64,000 nt of DNA, taken from Litoreibacter albidus (GTDB lineage Bacteria > Pseudomonadota > Alphaproteobacteria > Rhodobacterales > Rhodobacteraceae). Positions 23,373 through 32,062 of this stretch are shown piece after piece. Every line of letters starts with the position of its first letter. Positions within the stretch are counted from its first letter, which is position 1. Where the stretch lies: contig NZ_FNOI01000001.1 of NCBI RefSeq assembly GCF_900107015.1, forward strand, positions 870,501 to 934,500, written 5' to 3'. The notes under the pieces are model-generated. The model had not been told where the DNA came from. It saw nothing but the letters and a program-made list of their open reading frames with translations, and ran no database searches. The position numbers and the translations under genes are program-made.

Positions 23373-23591
23373 GTCGCCCTCTTTCACTGTTCTGTTGGAA
23401 CTTGTGGGCCACGGCAAAGAGAAAAACGCAAGCCCCTCATAGCCGCGTCAGACCTGTACCCAAGGCCGTAGAAGCATAAAACCAGCCATTTCAGGGCCTC
23501 TATTTTCGCTTCCTGTCGCCAAATCGGCATTATGCGCAACAAAAATACAAGAAAAATGCATATCAGGACACAAAATACAAACGATTGACTG

Positions 23592-23619
23592 TTGACCCCC
23601 CTGAATCGACTGGTAATGT
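23592..23619 (+). promoter_or_regulatory. Putative ilvB operon promoter
   Basis: TTGACC (23592-23597) as the -35 element and TAATGT (23614-23619) as a weak -10, sixteen bases apart. The start of transcription would be near 23626, giving a leader of about 160 bases before ilvB. The gap from 23373 to here shows no gene. Confidence 0.4.
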
Positions 23620-23647
23620 CCCCAGACACTCACGAAGGAGCACCGGC

Positions 23648-23695
23648 ATGGCCGATGTAGTCGTCATTCTAGTCAAACGGTGCATGGGTCGGTAA
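23648..23695 (+). CDS. ilvL: IlvB operon leader peptide (branched-chain amino acid attenuator)
   Basis: A 15-codon open frame reading MADVVVILVKRCMGR and a TAA stop. Six codons in a row (GTA GTC GTC ATT CTA GTC) encode Val-Val-Val-Ile-Leu-Val, the products of the operon that follows. An AAGGAG ribosome-binding site lies seven bases before the ATG. A rho-independent terminator starts 25 bases after the stop. This is the layout of a ribosome-mediated attenuator. The gene is too short to be found by ordinary ORF calling. Confidence 0.88.
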   Translation: MADVVVILVKRCMGR

Positions 23696-23720
23696 CGACA
23701 CTCCATATTTGGAACCATGC

Positions 23721-23748
23721 GCCCCCGTCAAAAAACGGGGGCTTTTTT
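23721..23748 (+). terminator. Attenuator terminator of the ilvB operon with competing antiterminator
   Basis: Eight-pair stem GCCCCCGT / ACGGGGGC with loop CAAAAA and a run of six T, 40 bases before the ilvB start. A competing pairing is visible: GGTGCATGG (23679-23687, inside the last leader codons) can pair over nine positions, one G-U, with CCATGCGCC (23715-23723). That pairing takes three bases of the terminator's 5' arm. A ribosome stalled on the Val/Ile/Leu codons would leave 23679-23687 free and favour read-through; one that reaches the stop would cover it and let the terminator form. Confidence 0.88.
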
Positions 23749-23787
23749 GTGAGCAGATGAAAAGACGAAAGTAGTAAGGACAGCACG

Positions 23788-25548
23788 ATGGCGAACAAGA
23801 AAATGACCGGCGCGGAGATGGTGGTTCAGGCTTTGATTGATCAAGGCGTGGACACAGTATTCGGATACCCCGGTGGCGCCGTGCTACCGATCTATGACGA
23901 AATTTTCCAGCAATCCAAGATCAAGCACATTCTGGTGCGCCACGAGCAAGGCGCGACCCACGCGGCAGAGGGGTATGCTCGCTCCACCGGCAAGCCCGGC
24001 GTTGTGCTGGTGACCTCCGGCCCTGGTGCAACCAATGCCGTGACCGGCATGACCGACGCCTTGATGGACAGCATCCCGATGATTGTTCTGACCGGACAGG
24101 TGCCGACCTTCATGATCGGTAACGATGCGTTTCAAGAGGCTGATACCGTTGGCATCACCCGACCCTGCTCCAAGCACAACTGGCTGGTGAAAGACACGGA
24201 CGAGCTGTCTGACGTCATCCACCAAGCCTTCCACGTCGCCACCAGCGGACGTCCGGGTCCGGTGCTGATCGACATCCCGAAGGACGTGCAATTCGCGAAA
24301 GGCACCTACACGCCCAAGAAAGAAGCGCGTACCCAGCATTACGCGCCCAAGGTGAAGGGCGACATCACGCGGATCACCGAACTGGTGGAGATGATGGAAA
24401 CCGCGCAACGCCCGATCCTTTATACGGGCGGCGGTGTCATCAACTCCGGCGACAGTGCAACAGCGCTGCTGCGCGAGTTGGCGAAAGACACCGGCTTTCC
24501 GGTGACATCTACGCTTATGGGGCTTGGCGCCTACCCCGCGTCCAGCCCGCAGTGGTTGGGCATGCTGGGCATGCACGGCCTTTATGAGGCCAACATGGCG
24601 ATGCACGGCTGTGATTTGATGATCAACATTGGCGCGCGGTTTGATGACCGGATCACGGGCCGTGTGGATGCGTTCTCTCCCGGCTCGAAGAAGGCGCACA
24701 TCGACATCGACGCGTCCTCCATCAACAAGATCATCCACGTCGACGTGCCGATCATCGGCGACGTGGCTCATGTGCTGGAAGACCTGCTGCGGGTCTGGAA
24801 GTCGCGCGGCCGCAAGACCAACAAGGAAGGTCTGGCCAAGTGGACAAAACAGATTGAAGAGTGGCGCACAAAGCGTTGCTTGGAATACAAAAACTCTGAC
24901 ACGATCATCAAACCGCAATACGCCTTGCAACGTCTTGAGGCGTTGACCAAACATCGCAAGGACCGCTTCATCACGACCGAAGTGGGCCAGCACCAGATGT
25001 GGGCGGCGCAGTATCTCGGCTTTGAGGATCCGAACCACTGGATGACCTCCGGCGGCTTGGGCACGATGGGTTACGGCCTGCCCGCCTCCGTTGGGGTTCA
25101 GGTGGCGCATCCCGATGCGTTGGTCATCAACGTGGCGGGCGAGGCGTCATGGCTGATGAACATGCAGGAAATGGGCACCGCGCGGCAGTATAACCTGCCG
25201 ATCAAGCAGTTCATCCTGAACAACGAGCGCTTGGGCATGGTTCGCCAGTGGCAGCAATTGCTGCACGGTAACCGCTACAGCCATTCTTGGTCCGAGGCCC
25301 TGCCCGACTTCGTGGTTCTGGCACAAGCTTTTGGAGCTAAAGGCATCAAATGCACCGACCCAAGTGATCTGGACGACGCGATCATGGAAATGATCGAGTT
25401 TGACGGTCCCGTGGTCTTCGATTGCGGCGTTGAGAAGCACGAGAACTGCTATCCGATGATCCCATCTGGTGCCGCACATAACCAGATGCTGATGGGCGAC
25501 GACACCGGTGAGGACGCCATCGGTGCGACAGGCGCGGTGCTGGTGTAA
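23788..25548 (+). CDS. ilvB: Acetolactate synthase large subunit
   Basis: 586 residues, the thiamine-diphosphate enzyme for the first common step of valine, leucine and isoleucine synthesis. Visible are the N-terminal TPP-pyrimidine domain with FGYPGGAVLPIYD and the activating glutamate in VRHEQGATHAAEGYAR, the central FAD-binding domain, and the C-terminal TPP domain ending at about residue 570. The metal-binding motif, normally GDGSF..N, reads AGEASWLMN here, so glutamate replaces the usual aspartate; I believe this is common in alphaproteobacterial relatives. Expression is probably controlled by the leader-peptide attenuator upstream. Confidence 0.96.
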   Translation: MANKKMTGAEMVVQALIDQGVDTVFGYPGGAVLPIYDEIFQQSKIKHILVRHEQGATHAAEGYARSTGKPGVVLVTSGPGATNAVTGMTDALMDSIPMIVLTGQVPTFMIGNDAFQEADTVGITRPCSKHNWLVKDTDELSDVIHQAFHVATSGRPGPVLIDIPKDVQFAKGTYTPKKEARTQHYAPKVKGDITRITELVEMMETAQRPILYTGGGVINSGDSATALLRELAKDTGFPVTSTLMGLGAYPASSPQWLGMLGMHGLYEANMAMHGCDLMINIGARFDDRITGRVDAFSPGSKKAHIDIDASSINKIIHVDVPIIGDVAHVLEDLLRVWKSRGRKTNKEGLAKWTKQIEEWRTKRCLEYKNSDTIIKPQYALQRLEALTKHRKDRFITTEVGQHQMWAAQYLGFEDPNHWMTSGGLGTMGYGLPASVGVQVAHPDALVINVAGEASWLMNMQEMGTARQYNLPIKQFILNNERLGMVRQWQQLLHGNRYSHSWSEALPDFVVLAQAFGAKGIKCTDPSDLDDAIMEMIEFDGPVVFDCGVEKHENCYPMIPSGAAHNQMLMGDDTGEDAIGATGAVLV

Positions 25549-25552
25549 GCCA

Positions 25553-25945
25553 ATGGCATCCGGCCCCGATAAAACTGCCCGTGATCCGCGCCTCAAAAAG
25601 GCGCGAGACAATGCCAACGGGCGCAAACGCGACGCAATGAACAATGATAAATCCGCGCGCAAAGCGGTTCCTGCGCTAAAGGCGCTGCAATCGCGCAGAA
25701 TACGTCGAAAACTCAAAGTTAGCGTGGATGATCTTGAAACAACGGAGGAAGACGCACGGGTTCTGGAACGCACTAAGTCAAAAGTCGGGTTTAGCCACAA
25801 CGCCGCCGAGCGTCGCGAGATAAGCGAAAAGCGTCTGTCCCATTTCCAAGAGGTCGGCGGACGCCGCGAGGCCCAGCGACAGTTTTGGGACAACATGAAA
25901 GATCGCATCGCGCGCCGACTTGCCAAAACGGAACGTGACGACTGA
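25553..25945 (+). CDS. Unknown basic protein within the ilv operon (1)
   Basis: 130 residues from the ATG at 25553, four bases after the ilvB stop. I do not recognise the family. It has a very charged, lysine- and arginine-rich N terminus (DPRLKKARDNANGRKRD), a middle with KVSVDDLETTEEDARVLERTKSK, and an amphipathic end (RRISEKRL-like and FWDNMKDRIARRLAKTERDD). It has no signal peptide or membrane helix and looks helical, possibly coiled-coil. Its tight position between ilvB and the next gene, which starts on its stop codon, shows it belongs to the acetolactate synthase operon. Function unknown. Confidence 0.7.
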   Translation: MASGPDKTARDPRLKKARDNANGRKRDAMNNDKSARKAVPALKALQSRRIRRKLKVSVDDLETTEEDARVLERTKSKVGFSHNAAERREISEKRLSHFQEVGGRREAQRQFWDNMKDRIARRLAKTERDD

Positions 25946-26292
25946 TGCTCGAGTGGCTCACCTCCCTCTTCGCAGCCGCCCTGCCCCCGGCGATCGTGCC
26001 GGACTTCGACTTGAATAAGGACGTCTACCAGCAGGAGTTGCGCTTCACCCAAGCCGCCGAAGTGTGTGTGGAACCTTTGGGCGAAAGCTACACCGTGACG
26101 GCCACAAATTCAGATGGCGACGCGCAGGTTTTGCATTTCGCGGGCCAGACCCAAATCGAAGGTGCGCCGGTGGTGATAAAGCCCGTAAGCATCTGCCTAG
26201 ACAAACAAGCGCAAGACCCCTTGCGACTGACATTGCTCACATCCGCAGGGTATCCGGCCAAGTCCGGCACCCCTGTGATCGACATACGATAG
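25945..26292 (+). CDS. Unknown small protein within the ilv operon (2), possibly exported
   Basis: 115 residues. The ATG shares its first base with the previous stop (TGATG). The N terminus MLEWLTSLFAAALPPAIVPDF is hydrophobic and could be a signal or an anchor. The rest is predicted beta-rich with two cysteines (EVCVEPLGESY and SICLDKQ) that may form a disulfide, which suits an exported protein. Twenty bases after the stop ilvN begins. I cannot assign a function; the operon position suggests a link with branched-chain synthesis, but it may be incidental. Confidence 0.65.
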   Translation: MLEWLTSLFAAALPPAIVPDFDLNKDVYQQELRFTQAAEVCVEPLGESYTVTATNSDGDAQVLHFAGQTQIEGAPVVIKPVSICLDKQAQDPLRLTLLTSAGYPAKSGTPVIDIR

Positions 26293-26312: not shown

Positions 26313-26876
26313 ATGCCCCCGCTGAAACTCAAAAAAGGCTCATCCAAGCACTCGGCCTATGACCTCAAAGACCCCAATGCGGATTATATCGAGCGTCACA
26401 CGCTGGCCTGCGTCGTCTCCAATGAAGCCGGTGTGCTGGCCCGTGTCATCGGGCTGTTCTCGGGGCGCGGCTACAACATCGAAAGCCTGACCGTGGCGGA
26501 GGTGGACCACGAAGGTCACCGCTCCCGCATCACGGTTGTGACCACGGGCACGCCCGCCGTGATCACGCAAATCAAGGCGCAGCTGGAGCGCATGGTCCCT
26601 GTCTACGACGTGCATGATTTGACAGAGGAAGGCGCCAGCGTGGAGCGCGAATTGGCGTTGTTCAAGGTCAAAGGCACAGGCAACGACCGGATCGAGGCCT
26701 TGCGGTTGGCTGAAATCTTCCGTGCCAATGTGGTGGATAGCACTCTTGAAAGCTTCATCTTTGAGATGACGGGGCATTCGGAAAAGATTGATGCCTTCGC
26801 GGAACTCATGCGCCCGCTCGGCTTGGTTGAGCAAGCCCGCACCGGTATCGCCGCCCTATCGCGCGGCAACGAATAA
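26313..26876 (+). CDS. ilvN: Acetolactate synthase small (regulatory) subunit
   Basis: 187 residues from the ATG at 26313 (the frame is open 250 bases further upstream, but that part is the preceding gene in another frame). An ACT domain runs from about residue 28 to 105 (TLACVVSNEAGVLARVIGLFSGRGYNIESLTV), followed by the C-terminal domain of the small subunit (REL.LFKVKG, SFIFEMTGHSEKIDAFAELMRPLG). It binds valine to inhibit the large subunit and increases its activity. Together with ilvB it completes the enzyme. Confidence 0.95.
   Translation: MPPLKLKKGSSKHSAYDLKDPNADYIERHTLACVVSNEAGVLARVIGLFSGRGYNIESLTVAEVDHEGHRSRITVVTTGTPAVITQIKAQLERMVPVYDVHDLTEEGASVERELALFKVKGTGNDRIEALRLAEIFRANVVDSTLESFIFEMTGHSEKIDAFAELMRPLGLVEQARTGIAALSRGNE

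Positions 26877-31985: not shown

Positions 31986-32062
<77 letters not shown>

Follow-up and report, generated by a model that had tools for sequence, protein, structure and literature searches.

The 64-kb window (the whole stretch of DNA that was analysed) carries on its forward strand ilvB (23788-25548), encoding the large subunit of acetolactate synthase with TPP enzyme N, M and C domains, and ilvN (26313-26876; start picked from the frame), encoding the small subunit with ALS_ss_C and ACT domains. The first-pass annotation had called these an ilvB-ilvN operon. However, ilvN does not directly follow ilvB: two small frames (25637-25945 and 25945-26292) separate them, and a Pfam search of both gave no match at E 0.001. 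The closest named relative of this ilvB was found in Litoreibacter ascidiaceicola (95% identity). All the features described below are located upstream of ilvB on the same strand. From the sequence, a candidate promoter was placed at 23592-23619, with TTGACC (23592-23597), a 16-nt spacer and TAATGT (23614-23619). Of 90 relatives, 86 had the motif TTGAC 66 to 40 nt ahead of the start of the leader, vs 1 of 90 shuffled controls.

A leader peptide gene of 15 codons (MADVVVILVKRCMGR*) extends from the ATG at 23648 to the TAA stop at 23693-23695 and is preceded by the Shine-Dalgarno sequence AAGGAG (23635-23640). Its codons -12 to -7, counted from the stop (23657-23674), are GTA GTC GTC ATT CTA GTC (V V V I L V). 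The frame, its ribosome-binding sequence and the six codons in a row had been given in the first-pass annotation and were confirmed at these coordinates. Short frames (8-40 aa, ATG, GTG or TTG start) were then scanned on both strands of the window. The two rows returned with six consecutive Ile/Leu/Val codons were one frame with two starts, namely MADVVVILVKRCMGR*. As the 64 kb contain no other such short frame, the codon run is more than chance. The Shine-Dalgarno sequence and the clustering of codons for amino acids that the operon would make are as expected of an attenuator, and the frame is probably translated.

Downstream of the control codons, an outer (antiterminator-like) helix pairs 23679-23687 with 23715-23723 (nine pairs, one of them G-U). 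Its 5' arm lies within the codons of the conserved R/C-M-G-R end of the peptide. In the predicted fold it encloses two hairpins: GUCG-GUAA-CGAC (23688-23699), which holds the stop codon inside a GNRA-type loop, and the small UCCA-UAUU-UGGA (23702-23713). The last 3 nt of the 3' arm are the foot of an intrinsic terminator (23721-23748), which stands between the leader and the first gene, as in attenuators. The strong terminator noted earlier was recovered as a stem (23721-23728/23735-23742) followed by a U-tract (T6, 23743-23748). The RNA 23676-23748 folded with a z score of -5.15 against 200 dinucleotide shuffles, none of which was equally stable. Searching the whole window with Rfam release 15 at the gathering score returned a single match, a tRNA at 31989-32062.

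For comparison, 110 ilvB loci with upstream DNA were assembled (80 + 30, the window's own locus, L081, being among the 30). Loci were selected with a pattern made of parts of the two arms and of the terminator: 91 were kept, four were duplicates and 15 were missed. L049 was removed because it keeps only the 3' part, which left 90 rows in alignment A1. The control codons were not named in the selection pattern. Ile, Leu or Val codons were found at -8, -9, -10, -11 and -12 in 92, 94, 99, 99 and 98% of the 90 aligned Rhodobacteraceae leaders. Outside this block the share was 0-9% at -1 to -7 (7% at -7, where the window leader carries its sixth such codon) and 8-13% at -13 to -16. Since some rows are close relatives, the counts were repeated after thinning to 81 rows of less than 90% identity, which gave 76, 76, 80, 80 and 79 of 81 at -8 to -12. 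As the 45 bases before the arm had been cut at a fixed length, the absence of gaps there carries no weight alone; the evidence lies in how sharply the block is bounded. Residues were exchanged among I, L and V from one relative to another and the NTN codon pattern stayed. The start codon was located 15 codons ahead of the stop in 81 of the 90 relatives (72 ATG, 9 other). The leaders ended with TAA (70) or TGA (20) and never with TAG, whereas the accompanying ilvB genes ended with TGA (44), TAA (38) or TAG (8); a TAG leader stop was found in three loci missed by the pattern (L020, L061 and L102).

Codon choice in the 90 leaders was unlike that in the ilvB genes which they precede. CTA made up 48 of the 112 leucine codons at -7 to -12 (43%) vs 1.6% in ilvB, and CTG 4.5% vs 62.8%. 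Likewise, GTA accounted for 120 of 241 leader valine codons (50%) vs 4.8%, and ATT for 57% of leader isoleucine codons vs 13.5%. In the enterobacterial leu attenuator, CUA has been described as the sensitive control codon, and its replacement by CUG lowered the sensitivity (Carter et al., as cited in the excerpt of PMC1183508).

The outer helix was paired in 94.9% of alignment cells. This conservation is partly by construction, as the selection pattern named those columns. The terminator stem was paired in 96.0% of cells, with changes on both sides at five of its eight pairs, and the stop-codon hairpin in 81.1%; in 72 of 90 relatives, a 4-nt loop of GNRA type on a stem of three pairs contained the stop. 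For the second inner hairpin, located where the MAFFT alignment is poor, the figure was 17.8-34.2%. The distance from stop codon to terminator was 23-29 nt (24-26 in 82/90). Thus, the alignment of relatives proposed in the first-pass annotation found the frame, the control codons and both helices conserved across 90 Rhodobacteraceae leaders. The compensatory changes it had suggested looking for were seen in part. They were found in the terminator and in stems of three loci missed by the pattern (GCGCGUG/CACGCGC in L016, GCGCGGG/CCCGCGC in L086 and GCGCAUU/AAUGCGC in L057), but the outer pairs hardly vary in the 90 rows, so that covariation there is thin.

Among the 15 loci missed by the pattern, 11 had a recognisable element (in L016 with two Val codons only), L041 and L064 had no leader, L020 was cut by a contig end and L005 was unclear. 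A covariance model built from A1 (R1) matched 222 of 244 genomes of the order Rhodobacterales at E <=0.01, representing 95 of 100 genera. Of these matches, 41 were opened as loci (L150-L190) and all 41 were before ilvB. Among the 22 unmatched genomes, ten ilvB upstream regions were examined. Six (L245, L246, L248, L249, L250 and L252) contained an altered Ile/Leu/Val-rich frame and a terminator, and in four (L247, and L251, L253 and L254 of genus g24) no leader was seen before ilvB. Genus g24 accounts for at least 12 of the 22 unmatched genomes and may therefore have lost the element. Relatives without a leader, named in the first-pass annotation as a case against attenuation, do therefore exist (L041, L064 and the four regions above), but they form a minority in an order where 222 of 244 genomes match, and they look like losses. 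Weak R1 matches of 15-19 bits within the window's own genome (L112-L114) and the match at L201 look like ordinary terminators and were discarded.

The nine-pair helix had been said to exclude the terminator. The helix exists and is conserved, but exclusion is not simple: 23721-23723 (3 nt) are the only bases shared by the two structures in the window, and the minimum-energy fold of the window RNA contains the full terminator together with a shortened helix. The overlap was 2-3 nt in 85 of 90 relatives. The lower energy belonged to the full terminator with a shortened helix in 75 of 90 relatives and to the full helix in 13, with two ties. In 16 divergent loci that were folded, the overlap was zero in five (L022, L057, L080, L245 and L249) and 2-5 nt in the other 11.

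Stalled ribosomes were modelled for the 90 leaders with a leading edge assumed to lie 13 nt past the first A-site base. In RNA ending before the 3' arm of the terminator, the outer helix formed and occupied nucleotides of the 5' terminator arm in 90, 90, 89 and 89 of 90 with stalls at -12, -11, -10 and -9, respectively. The number occupied was 2-3 in 36, 63, 78 and 88 of 90, and nearly all the others had more (up to 8 at -12). With a stall at -8, terminator-arm nucleotides were occupied in none of the 90, since the ribosome then covers the outer pairs. When the whole RNA was folded with stalls at -12, -10 and -9, the median probability of the terminator-foot pair was 0.82-0.83, and it fell below 0.5 in 26, 15 and 14 of 90. 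With the ribosome at the stop codon, the assumed footprint extends over the entire 5' arm, and the lack of the helix in this state is built into the model. In this state and before the 3' arm was present, 47 of 90 RNAs paired 1-6 nt of the terminator arm with other upstream bases; with the 3' arm present, the median foot-pair probability was 1.0. Under the assumed 13-nt leading edge, the control codons are thus placed where a stall frees the helix and a ribosome at the stop blocks it. These folds agree in direction with the classical attenuation that the first-pass annotation had recognized in the geometry. Its statement that the first arm is covered only by a ribosome that has fully translated the leader stands for the early control codons, but a stall at -8 already covers the outer pairs. 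The slight fall in conservation from -10 to -8 is in agreement with the stall folds. A GGA codon is frequent at -7 and offers a possible extra pairing with the terminator arm in single folds (stall at -12).

The frame, its codons, the helices and their spacing, all observed and conserved, point to a ribosome-mediated transcription attenuator tying expression of ilvB(-N) to charged branched-chain tRNAs, a reading to which we give a probability of about 0.9. We infer that the leader is translated, that ribosomes stall on it, that control runs in the direction given here and that a block at the terminator's foot suffices kinetically. With ample Val, Leu and Ile, the ribosome would run to the stop codon, located inside the outer helix, and melt this helix; the free terminator would then form about 25 nt further on. 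When Val, Leu or Ile is scarce, the ribosome would stall between codons -12 and -9, and the outer helix would form as a three-way junction before the terminator's 3' arm has been transcribed. It would hold the last 2-3 nt of the terminator foot, and RNA polymerase would read through. As the exclusion is weak at equilibrium, control would have to come from timing, presumably as a kinetic block at the foot. According to PMC4824070, an E. coli terminator 28 nt past a stop codon, a distance within the range of the leaders studied here, was about 90% efficient and one at 5 nt less than 10%, and closure of the final 2-3 bp of the terminator was reported to be essential for termination.

How the foot would be blocked admits another answer: a bulky upstream stem abutting the terminator foot may inhibit the terminator mainly by its bulk, and not through competition for bases. 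The overlap of only 2-3 nt in 85/90 relatives, the five divergent loci with no overlap and the coexistence of both hairpins in the window's minimum-energy fold and in divergent relatives are consistent with such a mechanism, and the 0-5 nt range in the 16 divergent loci makes some contribution of mere adjacency possible. However, an overlap of 2-3 nt is kept in the large majority and one of 2-5 nt in the other 11 divergent loci, and no clear precedent appeared among the literature matches listed. We consider adjacency as the main cause unlikely, though the most serious of the rival explanations. Much less probable is a leader that responds to stalled ribosomes whatever the cause, and not to branched-chain amino acids in particular. 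By fold, any stall on -12 to -9 would act alike, and sister elements (see below) stand before transporters whose family name refers to drug efflux; such a sensor would nevertheless not need a block of five Ile/Leu/Val codons or the choice of CTA and GTA before ilvB.

The conserved end of the peptide might act in trans, or the terminated leader RNA might be a small RNA with targets of its own. R, M, G and R were found at -4 to -1 in 82, 90, 84 and 87 of 90 leaders (M being fixed by the selection pattern). The same codons build the outer helix and the stop-codon hairpin, however, and the last residue varies (Leu in L066, Trp in L101 and Pro in L106) while the outer helix stays intact. The stop-codon hairpin is retained in L106 with different bases and replaced in L101 by another hairpin around the stop, and L066 has none in its best fold. 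A role of the peptide was set aside, although one of the three exceptions (L066) lacks the stop-codon hairpin; we regard a function in trans as improbable, to the same degree as the general sensor. Least probable of all, the frame could have arisen by chance before a constitutive terminator, or the element could be a riboswitch that works without translation. The terminator stem is strong alone, but the frame, its start codon and a codon block at fixed distance from the stop are kept in 90 relatives, and no credible Rfam match was obtained in 23400-23900 even at a relaxed E threshold.

The attenuator proposed here has relatives in the literature. An alphaproteobacterial ilvB leader peptide is referred to as previously described in the excerpt of PMC1273637 and a Sinorhizobium ilvIH cis-regulator is recorded in that of PMC2573895, both citing Vitreschak et al. 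(2004). These systems, known to us through the citing papers, share with the present one the class of bacteria, the leader peptide and attenuation ahead of acetolactate synthase genes. The Caulobacter crescentus ilvBN leader is likewise similar as described in an excerpt of PMC4117421: it has tandem Ile and Val codons ahead of ilvBN, and stalling blocks a Rho-independent terminator (Tarleton et al., 1994). The E. coli leaders ivbL, ilvL, leuL, trpL, thrL, hisL and pheL share the leader, the U-tract terminator and upstream bases able to pair with the 5' arm of the terminator. By a permissive measure, the overlap is up to 3 nt in leu, 6 in ilvL, 7 in trp, 8 in ivbL and 9 in thr, his and phe; by the same measure it is 2-9 nt in the ilvB leaders (4-7 in 81/90; the conserved helix takes only 2-3), which are thus lower without being outside the range, on a yardstick that depends on the chosen 5' edge. 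The Corynebacterium ilvB-II uORF motif, reporter-tested according to excerpts of PMC10272879 and PMC11109978, also has a short Ile/Leu/Val-rich frame, a terminator and an antiterminator before ilvB. It belongs to another phylum and is built of stems P1 and P2, the antiterminator taking the lower P2. The attenuation candidate uORFC-8-2, placed before cysS in the same order (excerpt of PMC8632094), has two stems and a U run but differs in its gene and in its cysteine codons, which lie inside the first stem. No report of a Rhodobacteraceae ilvB leader was found among the matches listed from open-licence PMC papers. Alphaproteobacterial ilvB/ilvIH leader attenuators are therefore already published, and the Litoreibacter element adds a well-supported case: an ordinary, very clean attenuator of unusually strict geometry. 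This geometry makes the aligned relatives well suited to studying the importance of individual control codons, the reasons for the use of rare codons and the smallest overlap with which an antiterminator can work.

R1 was also searched against 289 genomes of the class and matched 34, five of them from the window's family. The eight strongest matches outside the family (L119-L126, 38-74 bits) precede a Bcr/CflA-family MFS transporter and not ilvB. TIGR00710 scored above its cut-off in six of the seven proteins scanned (L126 was just below; L125 was outside the scan). In the other 21 non-family genomes the scores were at most 31 bits, and the two alignments examined match chiefly the terminator. 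A transporter of this family also follows each of ten second copies found in Rhodobacteraceae genomes (L191-L200). Among 20 transporters found at E <=1e-100 in 150 genomes of the window's family, three (L208, L209 and L211) had an R1 match and 17 had none. In the genome from which the window comes, the best homologue of the transporter (L202, 39% identity) had neither such a leader in the stretch examined nor an R1 match. A second model (R2), built on 21 transporter-type elements, had matches in 18 of 386 genomes of the class at E 1e-4. Four of these were new and outside the family, and all four stand before the transporter (47-54% identity). In all, the element stood before the transporter in 13 Rhodobacteraceae loci and in 12 genomes of ten other alphaproteobacterial families.

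In the transporter-type leaders, the codon block is centred on valine, and its distance from the stop is about that seen before ilvB. Ile, Leu or Val was found at -8, -9 and -10 in 71, 81 and 81% of the 21 leaders, and Val alone in 67-76%. The four new leaders read IIVV (-12 to -9) and VTIV, VFVV and VVLV (-11 to -8). The block is less strictly kept than in the ilvB leaders, and few Ile/Leu/Val codons are present in L125, L126, L196, L200 and L211. In the transporter-type alignment, pairing reached 85.7% vs at most 54.2% when it was slid, and no excess of compensatory changes was detected (76-296 of 500 shuffles were as high). On a tree of 40 transporters, presence of the leader required four changes vs 13.6 after shuffling (none of 500 as low); its bearers do not form one clade.

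The reciprocal scores of the two models and the shared core suggest homology rather than convergence. We tentatively propose, as a possibility somewhat short of an even chance, one family of RNA switches common to ilvB in Rhodobacterales and, with a valine-centred leader, to the Bcr/CflA transporter in other alphaproteobacterial families and in second copies of some Rhodobacteraceae, in which the stop-codon stem would block the terminator foot only. If this holds, the 'drug efflux' transporter is predicted to handle valine or a related metabolite. For these transporters, commonly named after drug efflux, the sister element offers a testable hint of the natural role; it also suggests that unrelated genes share an attenuator or that one has moved between them. 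Among the matches listed from open-licence PMC papers, none reported a leader ahead of Bcr/CflA transporters. This sister element and the minimal, foot-only overlap, both computational findings, may be new. Before ilvB itself, no compact Ile/Leu/Val frame with a terminator was seen in the 12 non-family genomes. T-run stems, which may be terminators, were observed in the ilvB upstream regions of L134, L136 and L241.

A homologous attenuator, with a leader that is mostly valine-centred, directly precedes a gene for a Bcr/CflA-family MFS transporter in 12 genomes from ten families outside Rhodobacteraceae (loci L119-L126 and L237-L240) and at 13 Rhodobacteraceae loci (L191-L200, L208, L209 and L211). 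Three ilvB loci from genomes in which the element sits at the transporter (L134, L136 and L241) carry GC-rich stems followed by T7 upstream of ilvB, and no Ile/Leu/Val leader was recognisable beside these stems. The alphaproteobacterial transporters also match the EmrD model, with scores under its cut-off. In E. coli K-12 (3852000-3854500), emrD lies about 0.9 kb away from ivbL, the leader of ilvBN; this proximity is possibly a coincidence.

Within the family of Litoreibacter albidus, one genus (g24) gave no match to the covariance model built from 90 aligned ilvB leaders in at least 12 sampled genomes, and both leader and terminator were absent from the three upstream regions examined (L251, L253 and L254).

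Between ilvB and ilvN, two small frames (25637-25945 and 25945-26292) had no Pfam match. Neither ATGCG nor GTGCG is present just past the U-tract (23743-23748) in the window. One or the other was repeatedly read by eye immediately 3' of the U-tract in several relatives (e.g. L006, L011 and L018), where it could pair with the 5' arm of the outer helix (23679-23687 in the window).
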